A stretch of 56,324 nucleotides of DNA, from assembly GCF_001897685.1 (NCBI RefSeq), contig NZ_MKUG01000171.1, positions 1-56,324 on the forward strand, written 5' to 3'. The position numbers and the translations under genes are program-made. This DNA comes from Thiobacillus sp. 65-1402 (GTDB lineage Bacteria; Pseudomonadota; Gammaproteobacteria; Burkholderiales; Thiobacillaceae). A model generated the notes under the pieces. It had not been told where the DNA came from, did not search any database, and saw only the letters and a list, made by a program, of their open reading frames with translations. Shown here in pieces: positions 4,464-51,515 of the stretch; position 1 is the first letter of the stretch, and every line of letters begins with the position of its first letter.

Positions 4464-5567
4464 TTACCGGTTGCCGCGATAGCTGACCCGGTAAATCGCT
4501 CCAGCCTGGTCGTCCGACACCAGCAGGCTGCCGTCGGGCATCACCAGCACGTCGGCGGGACGCCCCCAGGCCGACTCGCCTTGCTGCCAGCCGCTGACGA
4601 AGGGCTCGTAGCTCACCGCGCGGCTGCCCTGCAAGCGCACCACGCTGACGCGATAGCCGTTTTTGCGGCTGCGGTTCCACGAGCCGTGCTCGGCGATGAA
4701 GACGGCGTCCCGGTACCGTTCGGGGAACTGCTTGCCACGGTAAAAGCGCATTCCCAGGCCCGCCACGTGCGCGCCCAGATTCTGCACCGGCGGCTCGAAT
4801 TCGTCGCAGCGGCGGGACTGGCCGAATTCGGGATCGGCGAAGCTCCCGCCGTGGCAATACGGGTAGCCGAAATGCTGGCCCGGCCGGCTCAGGCGATTGA
4901 GCTCGTCGGGCGGCGCGTCGTCGCCCAGCCAGTCGCGGCCGTTGTCGGTGAACCACAGCTCGCCGCTTTGCGGCTGCCAGTCGAAGCCCACGCTGTTGCG
5001 CACGCCGCGCGCGACCACCTCGACCGTGCCGCTGGCCACATCGAGCCGGGTAATGATGGCGTACTTGTCCGGATCGGGCGCGCAAATATTGCATGGCGCG
5101 CCGACCGGCACATAGAGCTTGCCGTCCGGTCCGAAGGCGATGAATTTCCAGCCGTGGTGGGTGTCGGCCGGATAGGCGCTGCTGACGATTTCCGGGCGCG
5201 GCGGGTTTTTCAGGCGCGCTTCGATATTGCGCAGCCGCAGGATGCGGTTGACCGCCGACACGTACAGATCGCCATCGCGGAATGCCACCCCCACCGGCAT
5301 CTCGAGACCGGCGGCAATCACCACCGGCGTGTGCGGCGCCTGCAATGGAATTGCGTAGACCTTGCCCGCGCGCATGCTGCCGGCAAACAGCGTATTTTTT
5401 CCGAGCGCCATCTGCCGCGCGTTGGGTACGCTGGCAAACAATTCGATCTGGAATCCCGGCGGCAGCCTGAGGCTGGACAGCGGCAAAGCCGGCACCGACA
5501 ACGCAGCCGCCGAGGCTTGCGCCAGCCAGGCCAGCGCCATGGCTATGAAGACGATCAGTTGCTTCAT
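4464..5567 (-). CDS. PQQ-dependent sugar (glucose/sorbosone) dehydrogenase family protein
   Basis: LRLPPGFQIELFASVPNARQMALGKN...VPVGAPCNIC...GVRNSVGFDWQP...ELWFTDNGRDWLGDDAPPDELN. Confidence 0.88.
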   Translation of the reverse strand: MKQLIVFIAMALAWLAQASAAALSVPALPLSSLRLPPGFQIELFASVPNARQMALGKNTLFAGSMRAGKVYAIPLQAPHTPVVIAAGLEMPVGVAFRDGDLYVSAVNRILRLRNIEARLKNPPRPEIVSSAYPADTHHGWKFIAFGPDGKLYVPVGAPCNICAPDPDKYAIITRLDVASGTVEVVARGVRNSVGFDWQPQSGELWFTDNGRDWLGDDAPPDELNRLSRPGQHFGYPYCHGGSFADPEFGQSRRCDEFEPPVQNLGAHVAGLGMRFYRGKQFPERYRDAVFIAEHGSWNRSRKNGYRVSVVRLQGSRAVSYEPFVSGWQQGESAWGRPADVLVMPDGSLLVSDDQAGAIYRVSYRGNR

Positions 5568-6123: not shown

Positions 6124-7521
6124 ATGCCGAGAAAAGCCGTCGCCAAAACCAAGCTGTTCGTGTTGGACACCAACGTGCTGATGCACGACCCAACCAGCCT
6201 GTTCCGCTTCGAAGAACACGATATCTATGTGCCGATCGCCACCCTGGAAGAACTCGATCAGCACAAAAAGGGCATGAACGAGGTTTCGCGCAACGCCCGC
6301 CAGGCCAGCCGCTTCCTCGACGAGATCGTCAGCAAGCTCGACAACATCGAGGAAGGCGTGCCGCTCGCGCCACACAGCCACAGCGCCGCCACCGGCCGCC
6401 TGTTCCTGCAGACCCAGGCGATCAGCGGCGACATTCCGCTGAGCCTGCCGACCAGCAAAGTCGACAACCAGATTCTCGGCGTGGTGCTGTTCCTGTCGCG
6501 CCACTATCCCAAGCGTCAGGTCATCCTGGTGTCGAAAGACATCAACATGCGCATCAAGGCCCGCGCGCTGGGGCTGCCCGCCGAGGACTACTTCAACGAC
6601 AAGGTGCTGGAAGACACCGATCTGCTGTACGCCGGGCTGCGCGAACTGCCGGCCGATTTCTGGGACAGCCACGGCAAGGGCATGGAGTCGTGGCAGGCCA
6701 ACGGCAACACCTATTACCGCATCAAGGGACCGCTGGTTGCGAGCTTGCTGCCCAACGAATTCGTCTTCCAGGAAGGCCCCAACCCGCTCTACGCGAAAGT
6801 GCTGAAGGTCGAGGGCAAGCAGGCGGAGATGGTCACGGTGCGCGATTTCAGCCACCACAAGAACAATGTGTGGGGCATCACCGCGCGCAACCGCGAACAG
6901 AATTTCGCGCTCAACGTGCTGATGGACCCCGAGATCGATTTCGTCACCCTGCTCGGCCAGGCCGGTACCGGCAAGACCCTGCTCACCCTGGCGGCGGGCC
7001 TGGCGCAAGTGCTGGATAAAAAGATCTACAGTGAAATCATCATGACCCGCGTAACCGTTCCGGTAGGCGAGGACATCGGCTTCCTGCCCGGAACCGAGGA
7101 GGAAAAAATGACGCCATGGATGGGCGCGCTGGAAGACAACCTCGAGGTGCTGAACAAGAGCGACGACGAGGCTGGCGACTGGGGACGCGCGGCGACGCAG
7201 GATCTGATCCGCTCCCGCATCAAGGTCAAATCGTTGAACTTCATGCGCGGGCGCACCTTCCTCAACAAATTCCTGATCATCGACGAGGCGCAGAACCTCA
7301 CGCCCAAGCAGATGAAGACGCTGATCACGCGCGCGGGGCCCGGCACCAAGGTGATCTGCCTGGGCAACATCGCGCAGATCGACACGCCCTATCTCACCGA
7401 AGGCAGTTCCGGCCTCACCTACGTGGTCGACCACTTCAAGGGCTGGCCGCACAACGGCCACGTCACGCTGCAGCGGGGCGAACGTTCGCGCTTGGCCGAC
7501 TATGCTGCAGAAGTGCTTTGA
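6124..7521 (+). CDS. PhoH family protein with N-terminal PIN domain
   Basis: KLFVLDTNVLMHDP (PIN), LLGQAGTGKTLLTLAAGLAQ and FLIIDEAQNLTPKQMKTLITRAGPGTK (PhoH). Confidence 0.93.
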   Translation: MPRKAVAKTKLFVLDTNVLMHDPTSLFRFEEHDIYVPIATLEELDQHKKGMNEVSRNARQASRFLDEIVSKLDNIEEGVPLAPHSHSAATGRLFLQTQAISGDIPLSLPTSKVDNQILGVVLFLSRHYPKRQVILVSKDINMRIKARALGLPAEDYFNDKVLEDTDLLYAGLRELPADFWDSHGKGMESWQANGNTYYRIKGPLVASLLPNEFVFQEGPNPLYAKVLKVEGKQAEMVTVRDFSHHKNNVWGITARNREQNFALNVLMDPEIDFVTLLGQAGTGKTLLTLAAGLAQVLDKKIYSEIIMTRVTVPVGEDIGFLPGTEEEKMTPWMGALEDNLEVLNKSDDEAGDWGRAATQDLIRSRIKVKSLNFMRGRTFLNKFLIIDEAQNLTPKQMKTLITRAGPGTKVICLGNIAQIDTPYLTEGSSGLTYVVDHFKGWPHNGHVTLQRGERSRLADYAAEVL

Positions 7522-13755: not shown

Positions 13756-13804
13756 TGGTGGGCAGTACAGGGTTTGAACCTGTGACCCCCGCCGTGTGAA
13801 GGCG
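13756..13804 (-). pseudogene. 3' half of host tRNA-Val(CAC), separated from its 5' half by the prophage (attL)
   Basis: rc CGCCTTCACACGGCGGGGGTCACAGGTTCAAACCCTGTACTGCCCACCA; joins with 51576-51615 to make a canonical 75-nt tRNA. Confidence 0.9.
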
Positions 13805-45939: not shown

Positions 45940-46284
45940 ATGTCAGCAAGACCCATCACCGACACCCTCCGCCATATCGGCGGCGGCGTGTTCATCGACA
46001 CCGCCAGCGACAAACTCGCCGAGCTGGTGGCGGCGGTCGATTCGTCCGGCAAGTCCGGGCGCATCGACCTGAGCATCAACGTGAAGAAGGCCACGCGCGG
46101 CGGCGCCATGATCCTAACCGGCAAGGTCAAGGTGACCAAGCCCGCCGACGAGCCGATGGAAGCGATGCTGTTCGCCACCCCCGAGGGCAACCTGGTCGCC
46201 GACGATCCACACCAGCAAAAGCTGGATCTCAAGAGCGTGCCGTCCGCCTCCGAGGCCGCGCCCACACAACTCAAATCCGCATAA
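45940..46284 (+). CDS. hypothetical phage early protein
   Basis: MSARPITDTLRHIGGGVFIDTASDKLAELVAAVDSSGKSGRIDLSINVKKATRGGAMILTGKVK; precedes YfdQ-like gene. Confidence 0.65.
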   Translation: MSARPITDTLRHIGGGVFIDTASDKLAELVAAVDSSGKSGRIDLSINVKKATRGGAMILTGKVKVTKPADEPMEAMLFATPEGNLVADDPHQQKLDLKSVPSASEAAPTQLKSA

Positions 46285-46293
46285 GGAACCACG

Positions 46294-47154
46294 ATGGAAC
46301 TCGCAAGCACCGAAACCGAAAACCTCGCGCAGACCCTGTCCCGCGAGATGAAGGCGCCGACCGAGATCGGCAGCAAACCCGAGTCGCACATCAAGCGCAT
46401 TGCCATGCCCCCGGGCTGGAAGCTGGAAGAGCGCGACGAAGAAAAGCTGCTCGACGCCCCGCGCCGCAAGAAAGCGACCATCGAGCTCAACGATGCCGAC
46501 AGCTTCGTCGACTACATCAAGCGCCACGGATCGCTCAACAGCAGCACGATCTGGTGCATCGCCAATTACAAGGCTGGCGACGTCAAGTTCACCGGCATCC
46601 TCAACGACCACGGCGAGGACAAGGACGCAGCAGCCTGGCGCGACCACAAGGCCAGCTTCTCGCCCGAGTTTTCGGAGGAGTGGAACCGCTGGGTGGGCAA
46701 GAACAAACAGCCATTCAACCAACCCGACTTCGCTTCGTTCATCGAAGAAAACCTCAAGGACATCGCCAGCGTCGACGGCAGCCCCACCGGCGCGCAGATG
46801 CTCGAAATGGCACTCACCTTCGAGGCCAACCAGGACATGCGCTTCAAAAGCGCGATCCGGCTGCAGAGCGGCGGCGTGCAGATGAGTTTCACCCAGGATG
46901 ACGACGCCCAGACCATCCAGAAAATGCAGGTCTTCGACCGCTTCAGCATCGGCCTGCAGGTCTTCTGGAACGGCGACGCCTATCGCATCGACGCCCGGCT
47001 GCGCTACCGCGTACGCGACGGCAAGTTGACCTTCTGGTTTGAACTGATCCGCCAGGACAAGGTGCTCGAAGATGCCACCTCGACCCTGATCGGCCAGATC
47101 AAGGAGAAGACCGGGACCCCGTTCTTCTTCGGCAACCCGTTCGCCAACAGCTGA
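46294..47154 (+). CDS. YfdQ / DUF2303 family phage protein
   Basis: TIELNDADSFVDYIKRHGSLNSSTIWCIANYKAGDVKFTGILNDHGEDKDAAAWRDHKASFSPEFSEEWNRW. Confidence 0.88.
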   Translation: MELASTETENLAQTLSREMKAPTEIGSKPESHIKRIAMPPGWKLEERDEEKLLDAPRRKKATIELNDADSFVDYIKRHGSLNSSTIWCIANYKAGDVKFTGILNDHGEDKDAAAWRDHKASFSPEFSEEWNRWVGKNKQPFNQPDFASFIEENLKDIASVDGSPTGAQMLEMALTFEANQDMRFKSAIRLQSGGVQMSFTQDDDAQTIQKMQVFDRFSIGLQVFWNGDAYRIDARLRYRVRDGKLTFWFELIRQDKVLEDATSTLIGQIKEKTGTPFFFGNPFANS

Positions 47155-47169
47155 CCAAGGGCGGCCGTC

Positions 47170-47427
47170 GTGAACGAACTCCTCCTCTTCGCCAGCTGCT
47201 TCATGAGCGTGTTCGCCCTCGGCTTCCAGAGCCAGAACGTCAACCAGGGGCACTACGTGGCGGCATTCCTCACCAGCTTTCTAATCGGCGCCGGCCACCT
47301 GGCGCTCTACCGGCTGATGCCGGAAGCCGGCTTTAGCGAGGTCGCCGCCTACATGCTCGGCGGCCCGTTTGGAATCACCGCCAGCATGTACGTGCATCGG
47401 CGGTATATGAAGAAGGGTGCGGCGTGA
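47170..47427 (+). CDS. small membrane protein
   Basis: 85 aa with hydrophobic helices. Confidence 0.55.
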   Translation: MNELLLFASCFMSVFALGFQSQNVNQGHYVAAFLTSFLIGAGHLALYRLMPEAGFSEVAAYMLGGPFGITASMYVHRRYMKKGAA

Positions 47428-47447
47428 GCGGGCCACTCAATGACAGA

Positions 47448-47504
47448 GTGGAGGGGCGCGATGCAGCTTCATCGCGGCGCGTCCCTTCGCACGACGGGTT
47501 GTGC
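47448..47504 (+). repeat. attC-like hairpin (weak candidate) upstream of the first cassette-like ORF
   Basis: GTGGAGGGGCGCGATG-CAGCTT-CATCGCGGCGCGTCCCTTCGCAC hairpin followed by GGGTTGTGC. Confidence 0.35.
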
Positions 47505-47524
47505 CCCGACGATTGAGAAACGCG

Positions 47525-48139
47525 ATGACCGTAGCCATCCTCTTCGCACGCGCCGACAGCCACTACAAGGAACTTTCCGACGTGGACGTGTTTGATGCCG
47601 AGCGAGACGCGCGCACCTACGACGGGCCGTGGCCTGTGGTAGCGCACCCTCCTTGCCGAGCCTGGGGCCGGCTACGGGCCTTTGCAAACCCGAGGCCGGA
47701 CGAAAGGAACCTCGGGCGCCTGGCTGTGGCACTGGTGCGGGAATTCGGCGGCGTGCTCGAACACCCGGCCGGCTCGACGCTTTGGGATGCGCAGAAACTA
47801 CCGCGACCTGGCGAACGCGACCAGCTCGGAGGATGGACGCTGGCTGCGCCGCAGAAGTGGTGGGGCCACAAGGCAGAAAAGGCCACATGGTTTTATGTGG
47901 TCGGCTGCGCACCTGGCGAGATACCGGCGCTGCCCTACGTGATGGGCGAGGCGGCCTACGTGGTGCAGAGCCGGAAACGCGAGGACTACCGCCCGCACAT
48001 AACGAAGGCAGAGCGGGAGCACACGCCCCCGGCGCTGGCGGAATGGCTGGTTGAGCTGGCCGCACGGTGCAAGGGGCATAACGCTCAAGTTGTGCGGCGC
48101 GGAGCCGCAGGCGGAGCGTCCGAACGAACGGAGGGTTAG
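47525..48139 (+). CDS. cassette-like ORF, conserved phage-type protein with HPPCRAWG motif
   Basis: MTVAILFARADSHYKELSDVDVFDAERDARTYDGPWPVVAHPPCRAWGRLRAFANP; C-terminus runs through attC-like site. Confidence 0.7.
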   Translation: MTVAILFARADSHYKELSDVDVFDAERDARTYDGPWPVVAHPPCRAWGRLRAFANPRPDERNLGRLAVALVREFGGVLEHPAGSTLWDAQKLPRPGERDQLGGWTLAAPQKWWGHKAEKATWFYVVGCAPGEIPALPYVMGEAAYVVQSRKREDYRPHITKAEREHTPPALAEWLVELAARCKGHNAQVVRRGAAGGASERTEG

Positions 48140-48141
48140 AT
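48076..48141 (+). repeat. attC-like recombination site 1
   Basis: GCATAAC (48076-48082) ... GTTAGAT (48135-48141) with imperfectly complementary arms; next ORF start codon at boundary. Confidence 0.65.
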
Positions 48142-48481
48142 GACGACGTTTGACGAAGCTGAGTGTTTGAAAACGAACCCCTTCGAGGGTGATTTCGGAA
48201 GCCCTGGCGACAAGGTGCTGAAGGACAAGATTGGCACCGCGCGCAAGGGTGGAACCTGCGGCATGTGCCGGCAAGAGATTGTGCCGGGCGAGCGCGTGCG
48301 ACTGCTGGCGGCTGTGTTCGACGGCTCGCTGATGAGCTACCGCTGGTGCTCGGAGTGCTGCGCTGCGATGGCGGCAAGCTGGACTGACGACGGGCGAGCA
48401 TGGGAAGCCCGCGTGAGGCTCGGTGATGAGTCATCTAACGCTTGCGGTGAGCCGGGCCTTACGGAATCAGGCAAGGATTAA
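48140..48481 (+). CDS. cassette-like ORF, zinc-ribbon-like small protein
   Basis: GTCGMCRQEIVPGERVRLLAAVFDGSLMSYRWCSECCAAM; starts at GTTAGATG and stops inside next attC-like site. Confidence 0.65.
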   Translation: MTTFDEAECLKTNPFEGDFGSPGDKVLKDKIGTARKGGTCGMCRQEIVPGERVRLLAAVFDGSLMSYRWCSECCAAMAASWTDDGRAWEARVRLGDESSNACGEPGLTESGKD

Positions 48482-48519
48482 AGACGCTGGCGGGCCTCGG
48501 CTCGACCGGATTGTTGGAC
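48433..48519 (+). repeat. attC-like recombination site 2
   Basis: ATCTAAC (48433-48439, RYYYAAC) ... GTTGGAC (48513-48519, GTTRRRY); arms TCTAACGCTTGCGGTGAGCCGGGCC vs rc TCCAACAATCCGGTCGAGCCGAGGCCC. Confidence 0.75.
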
Positions 48520-48537
48520 ACGGACTGGAGCGAAGAC

Positions 48538-48807
48538 ATGAAACTCTACATGGTTGAAATAACCACCTACGGCGTGGTGATGGCCGAGGATGAATCACAC
48601 GCGCACCAAGTGGCAGATAGCTACAAGCTCGACATCTTCAGCGACGACTGGAACCCGCGCATTGAAGTGGATGGCGCGGTGTTGAAGGTTGACGACCTGC
48701 GCCACGGATGGGACGGCGAGTGCATCCCCTACGGCGGCGACGGCAACACAAAGCTGGCCGAACTGCTGGTGCCCAACTTAAATTCTCCGACACCCCCTGT
48801 CGCATAA
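48538..48807 (+). CDS. cassette-like ORF, hypothetical protein
   Basis: MKLYMVEITTYGVVMAEDESHAHQVADSYKLDIFSDDWNPRIEVDGAVLKVDDLRHGWDGECIPYGGDGN; stop codon lies in GCATAAC at 48802-48808. Confidence 0.65.
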   Translation: MKLYMVEITTYGVVMAEDESHAHQVADSYKLDIFSDDWNPRIEVDGAVLKVDDLRHGWDGECIPYGGDGNTKLAELLVPNLNSPTPPVA

Positions 48808-48837
48808 CTCCACCCCACCCAACGGAGACCCGCGCCA

Positions 48838-49860
48838 ATGCACACACTCGAAAAACCAAACGCGACACCGTCGCAAGTGTTGAACGGCACCCAGCCCAAG
48901 CCCAAGCTGCTGGAGCAGATGCGCGCGGTTATCCGCACCAGGCACTACAGCTACTCCACCGAGAAGACCTACCTGCACTGGGCCAAGCGCTTCATCCTGT
49001 TCCATGGCAAGCGCCACCCGGCCGAGATGGGCGCGCCCGAGGTCGAGGCATTCCTCTCCGCGCTGGCCACCGAGCGCAACGTCTCCGCCAGCACCCAGAA
49101 CCAAGCCATGCACGCCATCCTGTTTCTGTACCGCGACGTGCTCCGCGTGGATCTGCCATGGCTCGACGGCATCACCCGTGCCCGAACGGCCAAGCGCCTG
49201 CCCAGCGTGCTCACCCAGCAGGAGATCGCCGCCCTGCTCGCACACGTCAGCGGCACCAACGGCCTCATCATCAAGCTGCTCTACGGCACCGGCATGCGCA
49301 TCAAGGAGTGCCTGCGGCTGCGCATCAAGGACGTCGACCTCGCGCGCCGCCTCATCACCATTCGAGAAGGCAAGGGCAACAAGGACCGCGTCACCATGCT
49401 GCCGGCCAGCTTGGTTGAAGACCTGATACAGCACATCGACGAGCGGCTCCGCTGGCACAACCTCGACCTATCCACCGGCCACGCCGACGTCGAGCTGCCA
49501 GACGCCATCGCCCGCAAATACCCGCGCGCCGCGTCCGAGTGGGCATGGCAATACGTCTTCGCCGCGCCGAGCTACAGCACCGATCCGCGTAGCGGCAGCG
49601 TGCGCCGCCACCACTGGAACGAGCGCAATATCCAGCGCGCTGTAAAGGCCGCTGCTCAAGCAGCCAGAATCCACAAACTGGTGCATCCGCACACCCTACG
49701 CCACAGCTTTGCCACCCACCTGCTCGAAACCGGATCGGACATCCGCACCGTGCAGGAACTGCTCGGCCACAGCGATGTGAGCACCACCATGATCTATACC
49801 CACGTACTCAACCGGGGCGCGTGCGGCGCCACCAGCCCGCTTGACAGGATCACAGCATGA
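48838..49860 (+). CDS. intI: integron integrase (IntI family tyrosine recombinase)
   Basis: IntI-specific insert [44 protein letters not shown]; catalytic [36 protein letters not shown]. Confidence 0.95.
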
Positions 49861-50321
49861 GAAAACACGGCAAGCGCAGAACCCGCTGGGTAGCCGACCC
49901 CCTCGCCTGGCAGAACACCATCGCCATGCAGCACGGCATGACCCGCGACCAGCTCGACGACCTTGGCAAGGCCATCCACACCGGCATCCTGCGCATGCGC
50001 AACGGACTCGGCATCGAGGATGACTTCTGGACCTTCGCCGCCATGGCCAACGTCAGCCTCATCCTGTGCGAACGCGACGTCGGCCCCGAATACATCGACG
50101 TCGTCTACACCCTGCAGGACGCCCTCATGGAGATCAAGGCCCGCCACGAGCGCACCGGTAAATGGGGATTCTCCGGCAGCGAAATGCAGGCCATCAACCG
50201 CGGCGCCGAACTGCACGAACAGCAGATCGCCAACGTGCCGCGCGCCGAATGCCGCGACGCCCTGTTCGAAGCGCGACGCCGGGCTGCGCAAGGCCACATC
50301 CTGGAGCGCGTGCCGGCATGA
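49857..50321 (+). CDS. hypothetical phage protein
   Basis: 154 aa; ATGA overlap with intI stop. Confidence 0.7.
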
Positions 50322-50599
50322 CCACCCCTGCCCTCACCCGCCAGCAGCTCTGCGCGGCCCTCACCATCAGCGAGTCCACCGTCCGGCGGCTCGAACTGGA
50401 CGGCATGCCCTATACTCCCGTCGGGATCAGGGCCAAGCGCTACGATCTGGAAGAGTGCAAAGCCTGGCTGCGGGAGAATCAACCATGTCAATCTGGACAG
50501 ACAAGAAGGGACGCCGGCACGTCGGCATTATGGTCGACGGGCGCCGAGTTCACCGCATCCTGCCGCAAGACGCAACTGCGGGTGCTGCCAAGCAGCTAG
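50318..50599 (+). CDS. small HTH/excisionase-like DNA-binding protein
   Basis: LTRQQLCAALTISESTVRRLELDGMPYTPVGIRAKRYDLEECKAWLRE; immediately upstream of integrase. Confidence 0.7.
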   Translation: MTTPALTRQQLCAALTISESTVRRLELDGMPYTPVGIRAKRYDLEECKAWLRENQPCQSGQTRRDAGTSALWSTGAEFTASCRKTQLRVLPSS

Positions 50600-51435
50600 A
50601 AGCCGACCTGCGCGCCGCGCTCGCCGTCGCCAAAACGCCGCGTATCCCCAGCGACCCGCGCCTTACCGAAGTCATCAGCCTGTACGTCGCCCACGCCGAA
50701 ACCCTGCGCAGCACCAAGACCGCCCTCGACCACGCCCGCCGCATCGCGCTCTGGCTCGAAAAATACCGCGCCAGTCAGGCCCGCCAGGCTGCCGCCCACA
50801 TCGTCAAGGACATGGCCGGCCACTACGCCGCCGGCACCATCAACCGCAGCCTCGGCACCCTCAAGAAAGCCCTGCGCCTCGCCTGGGAGCGCGGACTCAT
50901 CCCCGTCGATTACAGCGCTCACGTCAAGCGCCTGCCCGAGAACAACGCCCGCAGCACCTACCTCAGCCTCGACCAGGTGCAGTCCATCGCCAGCCATTGC
51001 AGCACGCCGGTGCAGGCCGCCATCTGGACCGCCCTGCTCACCGGCGCTAGGCGCGGCGAAATCGTCAAACTGCGCCGCGAAGACATCGGCCGCGACAGCC
51101 TCATCATCCACGCCGGCAACACCAAGACCCTGCGCACCCGCACCGTGCCCATCGTGCCGGCCCTGCGCCCGTGGCTAAAGCACTTCCCGCTCGAAGTCGG
51201 CATCGAAGGAATCAAAAGCGCCTGGCGCCGCGCGCGCGAAGACGCCGGCATGCCCGACGTCAACTTCCACGACCTCCGCCACAGCTGCGCCAGCATCCTC
51301 ATCGCCACCGGCGCCGACCTCTTCACCGTGTCCAAGATCCTCGGCCACAGCAGCGTGAAAACGACCGAGCGCTACGCGCACATGCAGATCGAACAGCAGC
51401 GCGACGCGATGCTGCGGGCGTTCAAAGCCAAATAG
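50485..51435 (+). CDS. int: phage site-specific integrase (tyrosine recombinase)
   Basis: LLTGARRGEIVKLRRED, HDLRHSCASILI, ILGHSSVKTTERYAHM; adjacent to attR. Confidence 0.93.
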   Translation: MSIWTDKKGRRHVGIMVDGRRVHRILPQDATAGAAKQLEADLRAALAVAKTPRIPSDPRLTEVISLYVAHAETLRSTKTALDHARRIALWLEKYRASQARQAAAHIVKDMAGHYAAGTINRSLGTLKKALRLAWERGLIPVDYSAHVKRLPENNARSTYLSLDQVQSIASHCSTPVQAAIWTALLTGARRGEIVKLRREDIGRDSLIIHAGNTKTLRTRTVPIVPALRPWLKHFPLEVGIEGIKSAWRRAREDAGMPDVNFHDLRHSCASILIATGADLFTVSKILGHSSVKTTERYAHMQIEQQRDAMLRAFKAK

Positions 51436-51440
51436 GGGAA

Positions 51441-51515
51441 TGGTGGGCGGTACTGGGATCGAACCAGTGACTTCCACCGTGTGAAGGTGGCACTCTACCG
51501 CTGAGTTAACCGCCC
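51441..51515 (-). tRNA. tRNA-Val(CAC), phage-carried, intact
   Basis: rc GGGCGGTTAACTCAGCGGTAGAGTGCCACCTTCACACGGTGGAAGTCACTGGTTCGATCCCAGTACCGCCCACCA; all four stems perfectly paired, CCA encoded. Confidence 0.96.

Follow-up and report, generated by a model that had tools for sequence, protein, structure and literature searches.

A 56,324-nucleotide stretch of DNA from Thiobacillus sp. 65-1402 (hereafter, the window) carries an integron inside a prophage, with an integron integrase gene (intI), an attI site and three attC sites. Based on sequence comparisons, this is very likely a complete integron resident in a temperate phage lineage, whose backward cassettes would be exchanged by IntI and whose cargo would be partly counter-defence. 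With less assurance, we also favor the broader reading that a temperate phage lineage evolved an integron of its own, with a private pool of reversed cassettes that have attC at the gene 5′ end, by which counter-defence genes would be swapped in the phage operon.

The integron lies in a prophage at tRNA-Val

Matches to PHROGs placed a prophage of the siphophage type at positions 13756-51515, with genes for tail, tape measure, major head, portal, the large and small terminase subunits, primase and repressor. At its left end (13756-13802) the 3′ part of tRNA-Val is repeated with 83% identity, its right end is tRNA-Val itself (51441-51515), and the prophage at this tRNA (~13.8-51.5 kb) looks intact. 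Beside tRNA-Val is a phage tyrosine integrase gene (50485-51435, plus strand; phrog_1, E = 6e-49; start codon chosen by eye) that is distinct from intI. The comparison of one viral locus (L009, part of IMG/VR contig 3300024988_000205, 37,430 bp) with the window covered 10,598 bp, ending at 51435, and showed 100% identity.

The intI gene (48838-49860, plus strand) encodes a protein of 340 aa that scored 465.7 bits against TIGR02249 (cut-off 265) and aligned end to end with the solved Vibrio integron integrase (PDB 2a3v). It is followed by a small phage gene (49857-50321, plus strand; phrog_20828). The attI site (48771-48802, minus strand) reads CGACA-N5-TGTCG, GAGAATTTAA, with the core GTTGGGC at 48771-48777 and the crossover at 48776/48777. 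An attI block of this kind upstream of intI on the minus strand, CGACA-N4/5-TGTCG-NN-GAATTTAA-GTT, is conserved in 35 phage loci (27 distinct), and the sequence beyond its core GTT is variable or unrelated among them.

Three attC sites on the minus strand

An initial annotation of this region had reported two attC-like sites, at 48076-48141 (site 1) and 48433-48519 (site 2), delimiting a gene cassette. Both sequences are present there, and their identity as attCs bounding a cassette held up; they are not an isolated pair, as they are part of a complete prophage integron that also has intI, attI and a third attC. The two sites are oriented on the minus strand, with R boxes ATCTAAC/GTTATGC at site 1 and GTCCAAC/GTTAGAT at site 2. 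The attI site and the integron integrase gene, which starts 320 bp to the right of site 2, were absent from that annotation.

Candidate attCs were evaluated with an orientation-specific geometry scorer based on R boxes, 5- and 6-base spacers and an extrahelical base on the R″ side, which as a control placed every class 1 attC of two reference integrons on the strand of the cassette gene. This scorer replaced a symmetric attC scan, which was strand-blind and gave numerous spurious hits in GC-rich sequence. On the minus strand, site 2 scored 40.7, against 31.9 for the best of 10 dinucleotide-shuffled windows, and site 1 scored 28.7, with ~0.3 sites of at least 28 expected per shuffled window; known class 1 attCs scored 33-46.

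A covariance model (R1) was trained on 32 attCs from other phages, excluding all sites of the window. The helices of these training attCs covary (85 cells changed on both sides, compared with a shuffled mean of 36), the covariation score was reached by none of 500 shuffles, and the model recovered class 1 attCs with the correct strand. Both annotated sites obtained significant scores (42.4 bits, E = 7e-9 for site 1; 40.2 bits, E = 3e-8 for site 2), and a third attC was detected at the distal end of the array (47435-47504, minus strand; 36.7 bits, E = 2e-7). Beyond these three, nothing in the whole 56 kb fell below E = 0.5. The fold of site 2, on the plus strand, shows the expected unpaired spacers and both extrahelical bases. 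The single-strand folding z-scores of the window sites were modest (-1.3 to -1.9) and not decisive alone.

In the distal attC the R′ box is degenerate (ATTGAGT instead of GTTRRRY), and this site may anchor the outer end of the array. A version of this attC whose R′ box is intact occurs twice in another phage locus (L040, at 5339-5408 and 7005-7074), and an attC at least 90% alike to site 2 recurs in the arrays of L030 and L034, where its position and its R′ neighbors are different.

Hairpins at gene 5′ ends could also be transcriptional or translational control elements (terminators or leaders) and not recombination sites, and in attC1 the spacer holds the ribosome site of the next gene, the Shine-Dalgarno GGAGG of the open reading frame (ORF) starting at 48140. 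We consider this explanation extremely improbable. The R″ and R′ boxes (RYYYAAC/GTTRRRY), the unequal unpaired spacers, the L boxes with an extrahelical base and the adjoining intI and attI are all specific to attC. Moreover, an Rfam search of the window returned two tRNAs only, with no match at the attC sites, and no terminator-like site was found on the plus strand of the cassette region.

Cassette genes run against their attC sites

Taking the crossovers at attI and at the three R′ boxes as cassette limits gave three cassettes. Cassette 1 (48439-48776) adjoins attI, cassette 2 occupies 48082-48438, and cassette 3 extends from crossover to crossover over 47441-48081. Cassette 2 is the one in the initial annotation, where its length of ~378 bp was overestimated; from crossover to crossover it measures 357 bp. 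All three ORFs are on the plus strand. That of cassette 3 (47525-48139) belongs to phrog_12600 (E = 1.5e-72), and that of cassette 2 (48140-48481) encodes a small CxxC protein (phrog_19515, weak DUF7576) with homologs within the attC arrays of four other loci (L034, L262, L263 and L264). The cassette 1 ORF (48538-48807, 89 aa) reads through attI and stops just past it, so that the C-terminus of its protein is encoded by attI itself. Insertion of a new cassette at attI would alter this C-terminal end.

As originally annotated, the cassette 2 ORF starts at the GTTAG/ATG junction and stops within site 2, and the preceding ORF ends at the TAG of site 1. This had been read as exactly the arrangement of gene cassettes, which has the polarity wrong. 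The relative polarity of attC, attI and intI in the window is canonical, and the three cassette ORFs are antiparallel to attC and directed toward attI and intI; attC therefore lies at the 5′ end of the gene, in contrast to the 3′ end in canonical cassettes. A cassette gene parallel to attC and expressed from Pc is typical of integrons, though not strictly defining. The phage family departs from this usual trait.

We determined the coding strand by codon usage for cassettes bounded by covariance-model sites. Among 125 phage cassettes, 93 were antiparallel to attC, 2 were parallel and 30 were undecided, compared with 23 antiparallel, 65 parallel and 113 undecided among 201 cassettes of related chromosomal integrons (Fisher p = 5e-27 for the antiparallel excess, decided cassettes). 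Without using codon usage, orienting loci by homologs of the three window ORFs placed all 71 of 71 model attCs on the opposite strand. Phage cassette ORFs typically start within one attC or up to ~40 bases past it, and stop in or at the next R′ box. In the chromosomal loci, 219 of 219 attCs were antiparallel to intI. Three of the bacterial arrays (L130, L137 and L139, from Diaphorobacter, Acidovorax and Simplicispira) contain many regularly spaced cassettes of ~260-330 bp with no clear coding strand.

All cassette genes of the window are on the strand of the phage operon. A scan for consensus sigma-70 promoters only found none in 46100-50000.

A second set of viral loci (L048, L052, L054, L059, L064 and L077, the last being Virus Rctr41k) has its attCs downstream of intI and on the intI strand, with methyltransferase genes near the attCs. 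This is apparently a different way of placing all genes on the operon strand.

Cassettes differ between near-identical phages

Different IMG/VR datasets yielded five phage fragments that are nearly identical (L022-L025 and L032); they share an identical intI and carry three different cassette arrays. In L022, L025 and L032 the 84-85 nt from intI to the attI GTT are identical, and the sequences are unrelated thereafter. On the left, L022 and L025 share a 5.2-kb flank of 99.9% identity that reaches as far as the distal attC, at its R′ box (TGCTAAC), and between this box and the attI GTT one of the two phages has 2.7 kb and the other 0.36 kb. The same attI breakpoint was found in the pairs L028/L029 and L039/L040. 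In these sister phages, flanks that are 99.9-100% identical enclose cassettes that alone differ, with breakpoints at the attC R′ box and the attI GTT, which is strong in silico evidence of site-specific cassette exchange. The set of five fragments is well suited as a natural system for studying cassette turnover.

A related case is a prophage in a genome of the same genus (L281), which matches the window from attI (identity begins at 48771) through intI and the phage integrase gene into the host. Nucleotide identity is 84% for intI and 89% for the phage integrase and tRNA, and the L281 array has four other attCs and other cassettes.

Cassette differences of this kind might instead reflect the ordinary mosaicism of phages, by homologous or illegitimate recombination, if the attCs and intI were inherited relics whose recombination has been lost. 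Phage genomes are generally mosaic, the R′ box at the distal end of the window array is degenerate, and the hairpins could act as homology or RNA elements. Yet intI is intact, near-identical phages break at the attC R′ box and the attI GTT several times independently, and the same attC is found with different R′ neighbors in other arrays. We judge a relic to be unlikely, and favor exchange of cassettes by a working IntI.

The phage integrases and the host integron

Relatives of the window IntI are encoded by 64 viral contigs, and more than 30 IMG/VR phage contigs have arrays of this kind. Some of these contigs are fragmentary, and IMG/VR is the basis for calling them phage. At least two attCs were detected with the covariance model in 24 of the examined loci, and in a dozen more reached via cassette genes (by our count). 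The attI-intI-int module recurs across many phages, and the genes flanking the phage arrays include those for terminase, portal, tail, repressor and phage integrase.

When the phage IntIs (50 rows) were kept as one group, the resulting tree was more likely than the free quick tree (p-AU 0.83), which does not establish a single origin. In one IntI tree, IntI1 of class 1 integrons fell within the phage clade on a long branch, and the tree that keeps the phage IntIs together without IntI1 was more likely. Since the better tree excludes IntI1 from the phage IntIs, we make no claim that IntI1 came from phages.

The host assembly (G000), with an estimated contamination of 9%, contains a separate intI on contig C67 (493 bits, at the contig edge) and attC arrays on contigs C29 and C2. 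These are probably parts of a host chromosomal integron split over the three contigs, or else contamination. We searched for the window cassettes elsewhere in the host genome and found none, and the candidate explanation that the array was copied from the host integron was rejected on this ground.

The presence of an intI and attC arrays in the host assembly would fit a piece of the chromosomal integron captured by the prophage by chance, as cargo and not as a phage system. This is how known phage integrons originate according to Qi et al. 2023, as in Vibrio anguillarum and Shewanella prophages. The window array does not fit this type: the prophage intI is only 59% identical to that of the host and groups with the phage IntIs in the better tree, and host copies of the cassettes were not found. 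In addition, the cassette genes are oriented opposite to those of chromosomal integrons, and the attI-intI-int module is shared by many phages. Chance capture appears highly unlikely to us, and the evidence points to an integron that belongs to the phage lineage.

Cassette cargo

A total of 87 cassette ORFs were considered. The assignable ones include Mom-like DNA modification proteins, Dam, N6/N4 methylases and Lar restriction alleviation proteins, as well as SspD or PAPS-reductase-like proteins and exonucleases, and one had a weak match to the Acb2/Tad1 hairpin (E = 5e-4). The cassette 3 ORF of the window likely has a reduced C5-cytosine-methyltransferase-like fold with a conserved HPPC motif. 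This motif is invariant in the alignment of its family (phrog_12600), which occurs in phages both with and without attCs. The AlphaFold model had a pLDDT of 90.7, and its best PDB matches were 5mC methyltransferases, although weak (TM ~0.42). This cargo suggests that the cassettes carry, at least partly, counter-defence and DNA-modification genes; as most cassette genes have no assigned function, the counter-defence role is extrapolated from a minority.

Proposed mechanism and implications

The defining features that we tested (intI, attC and, by sequence comparison, attI and cassette exchange at the R box) were all found, and the locus is thus an integron. IntI would recombine attI, which lies just upstream of intI, with the folded single-stranded attC of a circular cassette, or two attCs with each other, and cassettes would in this way enter, leave and reshuffle between the phage early operon and the intI-int end. 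The single-stranded attC may be supplied by phage replication. Because genes are reversed within the cassettes, a cassette that IntI inserts at attI would be aligned with the phage operon and readable from upstream phage transcription. The newest cassette would be next to intI and farthest from the upstream promoter, the reverse of canonical integrons. We infer IntI activity, expression by readthrough and a benefit of swapping counter-defence genes.

Integrons are regarded as bacterial adaptation devices in which Pc drives gene expression. The integron described here appears to belong to a virus lineage, with the cassette architecture flipped to fit the phage operon. If so, a reversed cassette in a bacterial integron would be antisense to Pc, and a bacterial cassette in one of the phages would likewise lie antisense; given this mutual antisense placement, we expect little overlap between the two cassette pools, and inverted cassettes would need their own route of origin. 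The occurrence of one gene family in phages both with and without attC bears on the unsolved origin of attC cassettes. Integron recombination would also count among the mechanisms of the arms race and of modular evolution in phages, and the opened cassettes would be a natural source of anti-defence genes.

Comparison with known integrons

Our literature search, with preprints and most subscription papers outside its scope, found no phage integrons with counter-defence cargo or reversed cassettes beyond the work of Qi et al., nor any earlier account of a dedicated lineage of phages whose cassettes are inverted. The phage integrons and CALINs of Qi et al. 2023 (PMC9892861) share with the window the presence of integron components inside phage genomes. 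The complete integrons among them were captured from hosts or from class 1 integrons and have host-like integrases, and the phage attCs were recombinogenic with IntI1 in the assay used; a phage-specific integrase clade, systematically reversed cassettes and exchange between sister phages are not described in the accessible parts of that paper.

In the atypical integrons of the Treponema type (PMC3607928), intI is transcribed toward attI, with the cassettes beyond attI. The window resembles them in that intI and the cassette genes are transcribed in the same direction, but its attI is upstream of the intI start, its intI is transcribed away from attI and its cassette genes toward attI. The second viral set (L048, L059, L064 and Virus Rctr41k) resembles the Treponema layout.

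With canonical integrons, both class 1 and the sedentary chromosomal integrons of Betaproteobacteria, the phage locus has in common intI, attI, tandem attCs and the relative polarity of the three. It differs in that the cassette genes are reversed with respect to attC and run toward attI and intI, and in that the locus lies in a phage operon beside the phage integrase gene. In this orientation of its cassettes, the phage integron departs from all the described layouts that we found.
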